From Bdellovibrio bacteriovorus str. Tiberius (GTDB taxonomy: Bacteria; Bdellovibrionota; Bdellovibrionia; Bdellovibrionales; Bdellovibrionaceae), in assembly GCF_000317895.1 (NCBI RefSeq), contig NC_019567.1, positions 1,674,001-1,738,000 of the forward strand: 64,000 nucleotides of DNA, given 5' to 3'. Below the pieces are notes generated by a model that was given only the letters and a program-made list of their open reading frames with translations, had not been told where the DNA came from and did not search any database. The translations under genes were made by a program, and so were the position numbers. Positions 4,096 to 30,322 of the stretch are shown here, piece by piece (the first letter of the stretch is position 1; each line of letters begins with the position of its first letter).

Positions 4096-4506
4096 TTAGT
4101 TCAGATCATCCAGCGTGATGTCTTTGTCAAAGCCAGAACCACCTTCGCGGCCGTCTTTACCCAAAGATTTCAAAGAGTATTCGCCACCTTCCAGTTCGTA
4201 AACCAGATCGTGACCGAATGGATCCTGAAGTTTCTTGGTGTAGTAAGGCTGAGGACCCCAGTTGGAGCAGTTTGGATCAGCAGTTGTCAGGCCTTCCAAA
4301 GTCTGAGGATATTTACCGCAATCCGTGTAGTACATGGAAAGGGCGTTCACGATTTGTGTCAGTTGGATCTTAGCCTCTTTGGCTTTGGATTTATCCAATT
4401 GTCCCGTGATGTTAGGAAGAAGAAGAGCTGCGATACCACCGATGATGGCAAGGACGATCATGATTTCAATCAGAGTCATACCCTTGCGGTTTTTGAGAAG
4501 AGACAT
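4096..4506 (-). CDS. gspG: Type II secretion major pseudopilin GspG
   Basis: GspG polymerises into the pseudopilus. The 136-residue protein has the prepilin site KNRKG|MTLIEIMIVL (cleavage after Gly9, Glu at +5), the conserved segment around Tyr-Tyr-x-D-x-G-x-Y-P, and the C-terminal calcium loop ending G-K-D-G-x-x-G-G-x-G-x-D-x-D-I. Length is standard. AAGGAG lies 6 nt before ATG 4506 and a promoter candidate lies just upstream, so gspG heads the gspGHIJK block. In most bacteria gspG follows gspF directly; here they are about 2 kb apart with opposite-strand genes between. Confidence 0.95.
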   Translation of the reverse strand: MSLLKNRKGMTLIEIMIVLAIIGGIAALLLPNITGQLDKSKAKEAKIQLTQIVNALSMYYTDCGKYPQTLEGLTTADPNCSNWGPQPYYTKKLQDPFGHDLVYELEGGEYSLKSLGKDGREGGSGFDKDITLDDLN

Positions 4507-4530: not shown

Positions 4531-4558
4531 AGGATAGCAAAACCTAGCCCAAAATCAA
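4531..4558 (-). promoter_or_regulatory. Candidate sigma70-type promoter for gspGHIJK
   Basis: Read on the minus strand, TTGATT (4558-4553) and TATCCT (4536-4531) are separated by 16 bp. The -10 lies about 25 bp before the gspG start codon, which gives a short leader containing the AAGGAG ribosome site. This supports separate transcription of the GHIJK block. Confidence 0.45.
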
Positions 4559-4628
4559 AGGACAGAGCGGCAGCCGGACTAATGTCACATAATAATTCTT
4601 CGCTCTGTTGGCTGCGGTTATGCGACGC

Positions 4629-4760
4629 CCGGAGAATTCGCTGTGGGAACCCTTCTCGCCTCGGACAGTCCTCGCTCGTGTGTGTCCGTTTTGTTTCGAG
4701 TCGTTTTGTAGGCTCGTCTGCGGAACTCGGCGCGCAGGGTTCCCACAGCGAACTCTCCGG
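4629..4760. repeat. R1 element, copy 1: long inverted repeat with conserved cores
   Basis: Arms at 4629-4652 and 4737-4760 are complementary at 23 of 24 positions. Between them lie two short cores, GACAGTCCTCGC (4664-4675) and CTGCGGAACTCGG (4718-4730), which recur exactly in the second element at 29951-30116. The arm sequences are unrelated to those of copy 2. The two cores are themselves partly complementary. The element sits in the otherwise gene-free 4507-4932 region between the divergent gspG and the gene at 4933. I see no coding capacity in it. Confidence 0.75.
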
Positions 4761-4932
4761 ACTCGTTAATCGAATCACAAGAGGACTTTATGGGACAATA
4801 GTCGGGACTGCCTTTGCTGGGTTGTGAAGGTATGGGGATAGTTTGGGATGGGGAGTTTATGGGTTACTTTAGGTTTTTGGTTGGACGTTTGTCTGTCTTG
4901 TTTTGAGTAAGGAAGCTGCCGATAAGTTTGGG

Positions 4933-5994
4933 ATGAGAAGTATATTTGGTGTCGTGTTCTTGTTTTTGATGCAGGCGCAGGCGTTTGAGATTTCTAAGAA
5001 ATCAGATCGGCTTGTTTTGTCGGGGGCTTGTGAAGAGGGGAAAAGTATTTATTCCTCTTTGGCGAAGTGGAGTAGGAATGCCAAAACCGGCAAAACTTGT
5101 GACCCTGGTTCTGTGATGGATCAGCCGGGCGAGTCATGTAATTTCGATATCACGGATTGTGTGCCTGAACATGTGGTCAAATATCATGGGGCCACGCCTG
5201 AAGTGGACGGTCCGAACTGTTGGAACTTGTCCCTGGTGATGAGTAATATTTTGCCTTCCATGCGTTATTCGACTCCGGAAGAAATGAATTTCTATATGCG
5301 TCCGCCTCTTTGCCGTGCGCTAAAAGACGGTGAAAAGAAAGAGCCAGGGGATGTGGGAGCCATTCGTCAGATCGCCGGCGTGGGTAAGACCAACGAATAT
5401 CATGGTTTCATTTATATCGACGAAAAGATCGCCTATTCAAAAAATGGTTTTAGCAGCATGGCCCCTTATGCGCTTCAAACTCTGGATAAGGTTTATAAAA
5501 CCTATGAAGTCCCCAACAAGCAGGAATGCCGTCAAAATGTCATCAATGCCAAAAGCTCTAAATGCGGGCAGGCCGTGGCATTTTACCGTTGTGATTCCAT
5601 GGAAAACTATTTGAAGAACAACCAGAATGTGCCGGATCAGGTTCGTGAAACGTTCAAGGGGATGGATGCAGCTGAAAACTGCGTGCAGGAAGCCTTGTTC
5701 AAAGGGGATGCGTTGGGGGCTGAAGCCCGCAAGAATCTGCGCGAAACGGGGCTTGCTCTGGTTGAATACCTGAAAGATGCTAAAAACAAACCCGAGATCG
5801 CCAAGATGAAACCTGACGAGCGTGACTTCATGCTGGGAAGTCTGCAACTGCGCCTGGCTGCATTGGGTGACCAATTGCAGGTGGTGGCGATGGATAAGCA
5901 GGATCGGGAAACCTTTACGGCAGCGGGCGAATTAAGACACATTTCTGAGATGGTGCAAGCCTCTGCAAAGCAGCTGAAAAAAGGAGCTCGCTAA
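4933..5994 (+). CDS. Exported protein of unknown function, possible NlpC/P60-like fold
   Basis: ATG 4933 is chosen because it gives a clean signal peptide (MRSIFGVVFLFLMQAQA, cleavage near residue 17); a TTG at 4903 would add ten residues ahead of it. The mature protein is Cys-rich in its first half. Cys96 in N-C-W-N-L-S, then G-D-V (139-141), then His157 in Y-H-G-F-I-Y-I, follow the order and spacing of the Cys...GD(L/V)...H-x-x-I-Y pattern of NlpC/P60 peptidases. That resemblance is my inference from motifs only. The C-terminal 130 residues are helical and charged. The gene overlaps the downstream lipoprotein gene (TAATG), so they form a pair lying between the two halves of the secretion locus. 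Confidence 0.75.
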   Translation: MRSIFGVVFLFLMQAQAFEISKKSDRLVLSGACEEGKSIYSSLAKWSRNAKTGKTCDPGSVMDQPGESCNFDITDCVPEHVVKYHGATPEVDGPNCWNLSLVMSNILPSMRYSTPEEMNFYMRPPLCRALKDGEKKEPGDVGAIRQIAGVGKTNEYHGFIYIDEKIAYSKNGFSSMAPYALQTLDKVYKTYEVPNKQECRQNVINAKSSKCGQAVAFYRCDSMENYLKNNQNVPDQVRETFKGMDAAENCVQEALFKGDALGAEARKNLRETGLALVEYLKDAKNKPEIAKMKPDERDFMLGSLQLRLAALGDQLQVVAMDKQDRETFTAAGELRHISEMVQASAKQLKKGAR

Positions 5995-28732: not shown

Positions 28733-29935
28733 ATGGGCGCAAGCAATCATCATGTAAATCTGCATGTATCGAAATTTGAAGCTCCGGCGAAATTGAAAAC
28801 GCTGAGCTTCGCCCTGATCGCTATTGGTCTTTTGACTTTCGTGATCGGTCTTATGAAAAATCAGGACAGATTGTGGACTTCCTATTTGGTGTCCTATTTC
28901 TACTTCTCTTGCCTGGCATTGAGTGGTTTGTTCTGGATCGTTATCAACAACGTGGCTAAAGCCGGCTGGTCTGTATCCATCCGTCGTTATGCTGAAGCAA
29001 CAACGTCCTTCCTGCCGGCGATTTTGATCGGTGGTTTGGTTCTGTTGGTTGGTTTCAAACACCTTTACCCTTGGGCAAACCCAGAGGTGGTGGCTGAAAA
29101 TCCGGTGATCGCAGCGAAAACCGGCTACCTGAACATGGGTGGCTTCGTGATTCGCCTGTTCATCTTTGCGGTCGGCTGCATGATCTTCCGTCATGTGATC
29201 GTGGGCAACTCTTTGAAACAGGACAAATCCGGTGACGAGTCTTTGACGACGAAATCCGTGGCTCCGTCTGTTGGTTTCATTGTGTTCTACGCATTGATGT
29301 TCTCTTTGTTCTGCGTGGATCTGTTGATGTCCTTGTTGCCAACCTGGTACTCCACCATCTTTGGTATCTATGGCTTCTCTGGTATGTTCCAGGCGGGCAT
29401 GGCATTCCTGGCGATCGTTATCGTTTTGATGAGACGCTCTGGTTTGGTTAAAGGTTATGTGACTGAAGAGCACCAGCACGACGTGGTGAAATACCTTAAA
29501 GGTTTCTCCATCTTCTGGGCTTACATTGCGTTCTCTCAGTTCATGTTGATCTGGTACGCTAACATCCCTGAGGAAACAGAATACTACATCGCGCGTGCAC
29601 AAGGCGGCTGGATGAGCATCTCTATGGCTCTTCTGATCTTCCGTTTCGTGGTTCCGTTCCTGGCGCTTTTGCCTCGTGGAATGAAACGCAACGACAGCAA
29701 CGTGTTGTTGATCTCTGTGTTGGTATTGGTAATGCAATACGTGGACATTTACTGGATGGTTTACCCGAACTTCTTCGACGGTCACGTGACCTTCGGATTC
29801 TGGGAAATCGGCATCTTCGCTGGTTTCGCGGGTGCGTTCCTTCTGACAATCATGTCCTTCTGGTCTAAGCACTCTTTGGTTCCGTTGAAAGATCCAAGAA
29901 TGCACGAAGCGCTGAACCACCACGTTGCTTACTAA
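28733..29935 (+). CDS. actF: Alternative Complex III membrane subunit ActF
   Basis: ActF is the second NrfD-like polytopic subunit, paired with ActC in the membrane core. The 400-residue protein has ten or so hydrophobic helices and a loop containing Y-W-M-V-Y-P near residues 340-345. The start is ATG 28733, 7 bp after actE. It is the last act gene; a strong terminator (30002-30030) inside an R1 element follows. No cytochrome oxidase operon follows, unlike the ActABCDEF-caa3 arrangement known in other bacteria, so the terminal oxidase must be encoded elsewhere. Confidence 0.92.
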   Translation: MGASNHHVNLHVSKFEAPAKLKTLSFALIAIGLLTFVIGLMKNQDRLWTSYLVSYFYFSCLALSGLFWIVINNVAKAGWSVSIRRYAEATTSFLPAILIGGLVLLVGFKHLYPWANPEVVAENPVIAAKTGYLNMGGFVIRLFIFAVGCMIFRHVIVGNSLKQDKSGDESLTTKSVAPSVGFIVFYALMFSLFCVDLLMSLLPTWYSTIFGIYGFSGMFQAGMAFLAIVIVLMRRSGLVKGYVTEEHQHDVVKYLKGFSIFWAYIAFSQFMLIWYANIPEETEYYIARAQGGWMSISMALLIFRFVVPFLALLPRGMKRNDSNVLLISVLVLVMQYVDIYWMVYPNFFDGHVTFGFWEIGIFAGFAGAFLLTIMSFWSKHSLVPLKDPRMHEALNHHVAY

Positions 29936-29950
29936 GTAGCACGTGGTCGC

Positions 29951-30116
29951 CTGACGGAGTGGGGGCCTTGGCCCTCAAAACGCTCAGACAGTCCTCGCAC
30001 GAAGGGAGCCTTTCTTGGCTCCCTTTTTTTATTCTTTTTACTCTTCTGATTACTACTGCCGTTTTTTCAGGTGCTGCGGAACTCGGTTTTGAGGGCCAAG
30101 GCCCCCACTCCGCCAG
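29951..30116. repeat. R1 element, copy 2: long inverted repeat with conserved cores
   Basis: Arms at 29951-29981 and 30086-30116 are complementary at 30 of 31 positions. Inside lie GACAGTCCTCGC (29987-29998) and CTGCGGAACTCGG (30074-30086), exactly as in copy 1 at 4629-4760, while the arms have no similarity to those of copy 1. The loop also carries the act terminator. The region 29936-30419 contains no gene that I can support. Confidence 0.8.
30002..30030 (+). terminator. Intrinsic terminator of the act operon
   Basis: AAGGGAGCC (30002-30010) pairs with GGCTCCCTT (30017-30025) around a 6-nt loop, followed by a T run to 30030. It lies within the loop of the R1 copy 2 element, 67 bp after actF. 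Confidence 0.9.
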
Positions 30117-30204
30117 CCTCCTGGCTCTTATTCAGCACCGGGTGTTTCATCGCCGCCTCGAAGACGTTTGGCTGTTTCGCCTTTGGCGAAAGGCGCCCGG
30201 ACAG

Positions 30205-30240
30205 AAAAGGTGCCTGGTTGTTTTTTCTGGCTACAGCGCG
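30205..30240 (+). repeat. R2 short dispersed repeat, copy A
   Basis: It begins AAAAGGTGCCTGG, continues TTGTTTTTTCTGG and then CTACAGCGCG. The first 31 bases are identical to copy C (51287) and closely related to copy B (30287). The DNA between R1 copy 2 and this repeat (30117-30204) shows nothing recognisable. Confidence 0.75.
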
Positions 30241-30286
30241 CTGGCGCCGCTGGTCGCCGGTTGGTGGAGGGAGGGGATCTTTATTT

Positions 30287-30322
30287 AAAAGGTGCCTGGT
30301 GATTTTTTACGCCTACAGTGTG
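30287..30322 (+). repeat. R2 short dispersed repeat, copy B
   Basis: It begins AAAAGGTGCCTGG like copies A and C, then differs (TGATTTTTTACGC) before the shared CCTACA. It lies 82 bp after copy A and about 100 bp upstream of the Cys-rich repeat protein gene. Confidence 0.7.

Follow-up and report, generated by a model that had tools for sequence, protein, structure and literature searches.

REP sequences and REPINs, which are mobilised by RAYT transposases (PMC3116915, PMC3733652), are the first of several described systems against which the R1 element of Bdellovibrio bacteriovorus can be set. Like R1, they are short, dispersed extragenic palindromes that can fold as single-stranded hairpins, and they consist of two inverted half-sites around a variable loop without a transposase of their own. 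The half-sites of REPINs are tagged palindromes conserved at the base with a loop that varies, whereas the half-cores of R1 lie near the apex and its basal arms, unlike those of a REPIN, are unique and appear to be inverted duplications derived from the host; moreover, the presence of RAYT does not track that of R1. No GTAG/CGTC-tagged half-sites were found at the base of the R1 hairpin, which is unique at each locus. MITEs, ERIC/RU elements, and the palindromic elements of Rickettsia are, like R1, palindromic, multicopy, and about 100-170 bp long (RU: PMC2759123). They are occasionally fused in frame to genes, as R1 is at position 2868096 of the window's genome. Their copies have terminal inverted repeats in common and often direct target duplications. 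The arms of R1, in contrast, are private to each locus, and the terminal inverted repeats common to copies that mark a MITE or IS derivative were not found, as only a proximal stem of 5-8 nt is common within a genome.

Integron attC sites resemble R1 in that they stand directly behind a stop codon in fixed orientation and conserve structure over sequence; their bottom strand folds, as mismatch statistics suggest for R1 as well. They differ in that R1 has no R'/R'' boxes at its base and no cassette context, its upstream genes being ordinary chromosomal genes and tRNAs. Neither RYYYAAC nor GTTRRRY boxes were found at the stem base, where the arms have no sequence in common. Finally, inverted duplications of the ODIRA type arise by hairpin-primed or fork template switching (PMC4689423), in which a nascent strand folds back and the flank is copied in inverted form on the other side of a small central sequence, an outcome that resembles R1; however, ODIRA events are one-off and lack a shared mobile core, whereas the copies of R1 have a core in common. 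The anatomy of R1 is that of a common core between private, host-derived arms in inverted duplication and in fixed orientation, with expansion in some genomes and losses. The reading that we prefer, and hold at about even confidence, is that R1 is one family of small, dispersed, non-autonomous mobile hairpin elements that take an inverted copy of the host flank on insertion.

Copies, anatomy, and distribution of R1

The window, by which we mean the whole stretch of 64,000 nucleotides of the B. bacteriovorus str. Tiberius genome that was analysed, holds two copies of R1, both of them where an earlier note on this DNA had placed them, and these are its two longest inverted repeats (within 300 bp). 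In copy 1 the left arm (4629-4659) pairs at 28 of 31 positions with the right arm (4730-4760); between them lie the left half-core GACAGTCCTCGC (4664-4675), a T-rich apical segment of type B (4676-4717), and the right half-core CTGCGGAACTCG (4718-4729), all on the plus strand. Copy 2, also on the plus strand, has the same half-cores at 29987-29998 and 30074-30085, and its left arm (29951-29981), which starts 15 nt past the stop codon of the ORF at 28733-29935, pairs at 30 of 31 positions with its right arm (30086-30116). Its apical segment contains an intrinsic terminator (30001-30034, plus strand), with the stem AAGGGAGCC/GGCTCCCTT and a T run, that is probably the upstream gene's own. The earlier note had reported the same pairing for copy 2 and 23/24 for copy 1, where the arms do pair and the count given here covers the full arm; its view that the cores occupy similar internal positions has to be given up, since the core-to-core distance is 42 nt in one copy and 75 nt in the other.

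The earlier note had also proposed a search of this and related genomes for further copies. The window's genome, searched by pattern and covariance model only, yielded 20 copies with covariance model R1, and 23 of the 24 genomes of the genus carry 2-22 copies. The view that the pair is two coincidental repeats, which the note had tied to a lack of further copies or to unpaired arms, is thus excluded by copy number, conservation, and pairing arms. There are 13 exact GACAGTCCTCGC sites in the genome, 12 of which are intact two-core elements with pairing arms; the thirteenth (L005) is a half element with an intact ortholog (L135) in genome G001. A search with the second core added four copies that carry the left-core variant GACACATCCTCGC. 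The core consists of two half-cores, left RACA(GT|CAT)CCTCG and right CTGYGGAACTYG, and the apical segment between them is interchangeable, being either a simple loop, a hairpin, or a transcription terminator. Together with the proximal stem of 5-8 nt these parts form the unit of about 45-115 bp that is common to loci. The half-cores can pair with each other (AGTCC-T-CGC with GCGGAACT, with changes at the two closing pairs only), which gives an internal-loop structure. The apical segment is a short hairpin, itself covarying, in type A and T-rich in type B, and in two of the three type C copies of the window's genome it holds an intrinsic terminator. Among the six type A copies of this genome, core identity is 84% and arm-to-arm identity equals that of shuffled arms. 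Such near-identical cores in unrelated arms are as expected of a mobile unit.

Copies have a characteristic position and orientation. Gene ends were counted in three sets within a span of -25 to +30 nt around the left arm's outer end. A sense protein gene ended there with no counterpart on the right in 46 cases, and the mirror arrangement was seen in 8 (13:3, 23:2, and 10:3 by set); arms usually start 0-20 nt past the stop codon. Copy 1 is an exception to this placement: it lies between divergent genes, a T2SS protein G/type IV pilin-like gene (4096-4506, minus strand) and the ORF at 4903-5994, and is not behind a gene end. In all 19 tRNA-associated copies, a count that includes orthologs, the tRNA lies upstream and on the strand of the element. 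The tRNAs involved are tRNA-Leu (GAG, UAA, and CAA), tRNA-Arg in G076, and tRNA-Met in G072; given the latter two, the idea that tRNA-Leu is the sole tRNA target was dropped.

Beyond the genus the distribution is patchy, with copies in 41 of 141 genomes of the order and 45 of 369 genomes of the phylum (up to 24 per genome). The exact two-half-core pattern occurs in at least 119 stretches of GTDB genomes from many phyla. The matches listed include Coriobacteriia (Collinsella, Olsenella, Enorma, Eggerthellaceae, and Atopobiaceae) as well as Omnitrophota, Clostridia, Hydrogenedentota, Dormibacterota, Myxococcales, Planctomycetes, and others, and among them arms of at least 15 bp are present at 88 of 114 distinct sites. 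The exact pattern had no match in 2.9 million viral contigs, and one 36-nt query had none in plasmids. In agreement with the earlier note, which knew no named element of this design, no Rfam 15 family scored above its curated threshold for the window and 15 loci from other phyla (the sole match was a tRNA), a relaxed Rfam search of copy 1 gave chance hairpin matches only, and a literature search for the core letters and similar repeats found nothing relevant. In a Clostridia MAG (L241, 5475-5821) the core unit is repeated three times in tandem with a period of 155 bp. Propionigenium maris carries TACAGTCCTCG...CTGCGGAACT sites without pairing arms (L236, L284, L299, L306, and L312), possibly a separate or derived class.

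Pairing and origin of the arms

When 17 copies of the window's genome were aligned outward from the cores, without use of the arms in the alignment, about 91-93.5% of arm cells were paired, compared with 60% after shuffling, and all 14 arm pairs tested had changed on both sides. The covariation score was 0.84, against 0.19 for shuffled arms and at most 0.21 when the partner was shifted by one to three bases. Folded singly, the arms show no more than a mild excess of small hairpins (11 of 59 at p<=0.05). On the strand read, G-U makes up about 0.4-0.7% of arm pairs (1 of 238 cells in the 17-copy set), compared with about 2% on the other strand. Mismatches in the distal arms, summed over three sets of mutually dissimilar copies, are likewise asymmetric on the strand read, with 73 A.C versus 27 G.T and 45 pyrimidine-pyrimidine versus 15 purine-purine, whereas strand-blind mutation of the arms would give A.C and G.T at equal frequency. 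Because an excess of A.C and pyrimidine-pyrimidine on the top strand corresponds to stable G.T and purine-purine on the bottom strand, it seems from these statistics that folding of the bottom strand is what is kept, with a strand bias of mutation as the alternative. G.T on the bottom strand is not much commoner than purine-purine, and for this reason a DNA hairpin would fit better than an RNA helix.

Several lines of evidence indicate where the arms come from. In the 12 inspected copies of G108, the cores have a mean identity of 90%; the arms are 32-86 bp long and 91-99% complementary within a copy, and they are mutually unrelated (30% ungapped identity). Only the innermost 5-8 nt of the arms are common within a genome (CTTCATGC in G108 and AAAAAA in G076). 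Arms are longest and near perfect in the recently expanded set, whereas old copies have decayed outer ends, with a shorter tight arm and DNA beyond it that is still weakly complementary. Complementarity past the arms was detected at p<0.05 in 60 of 126 copies, and same-copy flanks match much more closely than different-copy flanks (overall Mann-Whitney p=4e-22, a value that includes orthologous copies and does not stand for independent events).

This decayed complementarity reaches coding sequence, crosses stop codons, and is found beside both copies of the window. At copy 1 the left flank (4541-4621), on the promoter side of the pilin-like gene, has a decayed inverted counterpart at 4767-4844 (local alignment score 21; 0 of 2000 shuffles as high). 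At copy 2 the 3' end and stop codon of the upstream CDS (29858-29941, plus strand) are the source of an inverted duplication, the decayed copy of which lies at 30124-30206 on the minus strand and still resembles the C-terminal codons of the upstream gene; here the complementarity crosses the stop codon into coding sequence, and alignment of the first segment with the reverse of the second scores 19, reached by 0 of 2000 shuffles and by a fraction of 0.0005 of random window positions. Upstream of the pilin-like gene of G013 and G015, an ortholog of the neighbour of copy 1, an inverted duplication of about 100 nt was recognised by eye. At tRNA sites the left arm holds the 3' end of the tRNA itself and the right arm its inverse, which identifies the upstream gene end as the source and the right side as the inverted copy. 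Judged by these sequence comparisons, flanking host DNA was duplicated in inverted orientation and the arms are what survives of it; they would be private to each copy because each is a remnant of DNA duplicated and inverted locally. The long private stems serve as a natural record from which the retention or loss of complementary arms through time can be read.

In the light of these results, the claim of the earlier note that independent change with retained pairing is the signature of a conserved structure, either an RNA or a cruciform with interacting cores, can be divided. The covariation is real, and a structure in which the half-cores can pair is supported. However, the arms appear to be remnants of local host DNA, and so few G-U pairs on the sense strand are not the usual signature of an RNA helix there. 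That the arms have no sequence in common is correct insofar as they are private to each locus, but a weak GGGGCYTTAGG-like tendency is common to them. Separately, a second dispersed repeat, AAAAGGTGCCTGGTTGTTTTTT / AGGTGCCTGACACTTTTT, lies beside several elements (30200-30300 of the window and loci L187, L189, and L197 of G108) and looks like a RAYT-associated REP of the order.

Proposed mechanism and alternative readings

In the mobile-hairpin reading that we prefer, the unit would arrive in single-stranded form, as a hairpin that is joined to a 3' end of the host where a transcription unit ends. The folded-back 3' end would then prime copying of the adjacent host strand (snap-back synthesis), and the inverted copy would be made before the far side is sealed. 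Later the core-proximal part of the arm would be kept paired, either by selection for the bottom-strand hairpin or by templated correction between the arms, and the outer part would decay. We infer mobility, single-stranded entry, and snap-back copying from the anatomy of the copies. Co-option seems to have turned some copies into hairpins at 3' ends and, in one case, a copy into the beginning of a lipoprotein gene. Counting against the mobile reading, type C holds an apparent host terminator between the half-cores, which the insertion of a compact unit does not explain, and copy 1 has divergent genes on its two sides.

Small repeats known from bacteria bring their own ends, and we know of no bacterial precedent for ends that are built from the host at each site. 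The family is apparently unnamed, and we found no known family whose defining features R1 has. More tentatively, and somewhat short of even confidence, we suggest that it represents a trans-phylum class of mobile nucleic acid that inserts behind transcription units and, as part of the same process, copies the adjacent host strand back on itself; each copy would thereby make its own arms, and the core would serve as a single-stranded hairpin recognised by a host or mobile enzyme. As the core is present in Bdellovibrionota, Coriobacteriia, Omnitrophota, Clostridia, and others, whatever enzyme or process acts on it must be widespread and as yet without a name. It also counts against mobility that a mobilising enzyme was not found through the presence of Y1_Tnp or the neighbour genes of the 119 listed loci of other phyla, among which no neighbour recurs. 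A RAYT was considered as mobiliser and set aside because Y1_Tnp (PF01797) does not track the element, being not found in G002, G011, G014, and G072, which carry 8, 5, 5-6, and 3-4 copies; it may conceivably have been lost after expansion.

The main rival holds that R1 is a structured RNA motif of 3' UTRs or small RNAs that a conserved protein recognises. Its long basal stem and its apical domain would both vary and its internal loop would be conserved; the copies would have arisen by duplication, and the stem would be under selection. We retain this reading because the core is conserved across phyla and its orientation is fixed relative to transcription behind genes and tRNAs; the strong covariation, the very stable fold, and the type A apical hairpin, which changes sequence and stays paired, fit it as well. 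We nevertheless consider it unlikely. The arms are nearly free of sense-strand G-U (0.6%), the mismatches favour the opposite strand, the decayed complementarity extends into coding sequence, and no Rfam family matches. In type C, moreover, sense transcription would terminate between the half-cores and leave a sense RNA without the right arm. For a comparison with published transcripts we take G001 to be strain HD100. None of the eight published attack-phase RNAs of HD100 overlaps a copy (PMC3627812).

Selection could instead have acted at gene ends on a composite terminator or exonuclease barrier, with long hairpins kept because they terminate transcription in both directions and cores at which a factor binds or processing occurs. 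The position 0-20 nt past stop codons, the T-rich loops or true terminators within type B and C copies, and the ordinary terminators found at such places in species without the element are in keeping with this, but a terminator needs no two exact cores of 10-12 nt, and type A copies and most arms have no U-tract. Given also the patchy occurrence of 0-24 copies per genome and the inverted copies of coding sequence, which terminator evolution would not be expected to produce, this reading seems improbable. We find it harder still to credit that R1 is an ordinary palindromic repeat of a known kind, whether of REPIN/RAYT type, a MITE, an ERIC, or an attC site. R1 is indeed short, dispersed, extragenic, palindromic, and multicopy, and RAYT-like genes are common in the order, yet its conserved interior and unique arms are the reverse of the REP, ERIC, and MITE design, several genomes with copies have no RAYT, attC boxes and integron context are absent, and no direct target duplication is seen at the arm ends in comparisons that lack a matched empty site of the same age. 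A chance repeat pair or assembly artefact is already refuted by copy number and conservation. Inverted chimaeras are a known artefact of amplified DNA, and two assemblies have N runs exactly inside a copy, but the 20 copies come from a complete genome on one contig, orthologous copies occur in independent genomes, and 12 of the 13 exact cores belong to intact elements.

Gain, loss, and wear of copies

The history of individual copies bears on the mobile-hairpin reading both ways. Against it, most copies in Bdellovibrio are old and common to genomes, and no clean filled/empty pair of nearly identical genomes was obtained. In its favour, some loci are empty or hold remnants. At position 2868096 of the window's genome the element is present here and in G004 and absent in G001. 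In the carriers a lipoprotein takes its start codon and N-terminus from the element, which is translated in frame (translation by eye; L011, L112, and L148), whereas G001 has a lipoprotein gene with an intact ordinary signal peptide; loss from G001 is as likely as gain in the others. At L149 of the window's genome (~7400) the outer arms alone are left as a core-less palindrome, and G001 and G004 have a full copy there. The locus of copy 2 is full in G000, G001, G004, G019, G003, and G006 and retains mainly the left half in G021, G007, and G018; most other species have a plain terminator at this locus, and the carriers have a similar terminator between the half-cores.

Arm alleles also vary. 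At tRNA-Leu(UAA) several exist in the genus, all of them self-complementary, and between G000, G001, and G004 an orthologous arm is either nearly the same (about 95-100% identity) or mostly different, with an apical segment that stays similar. The notion that arms are rewritten faster than neutral was rejected, because the non-coding right flanks diverge equally and recombination with divergent alleles explains the two classes. Downstream of tRNA-Leu in G005 (L220), an intact element is followed by a second right-arm remnant that matches a different arm allele; one copy seems to have replaced another at this site or to have been inserted within it. On contig C12 of G011 (L230 and L210, at 96275 and 138859), the intact tRNA-Leu(UAA) has no element, and about 42.6 kb away a 64-nt fragment from the 3' end of this tRNA carries one; a genomic island inserted in the tRNA would be expected to give such an arrangement. 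Upstream of the pilin-like gene in G010 (L397), another short repeat is apparently inserted within the left half-core.

The elements have consequences for the genomes that carry them: they mark the 3' ends of genes and tRNAs, alter 3' UTRs, supply one lipoprotein gene start, and can break assemblies. In G006 and G003 (L217 and L218), 13 nt past tRNA-Leu, assembly gaps (N runs of about 42 and 97) fall exactly within the element, which is what a hairpin refractory to sequencing would be expected to cause.
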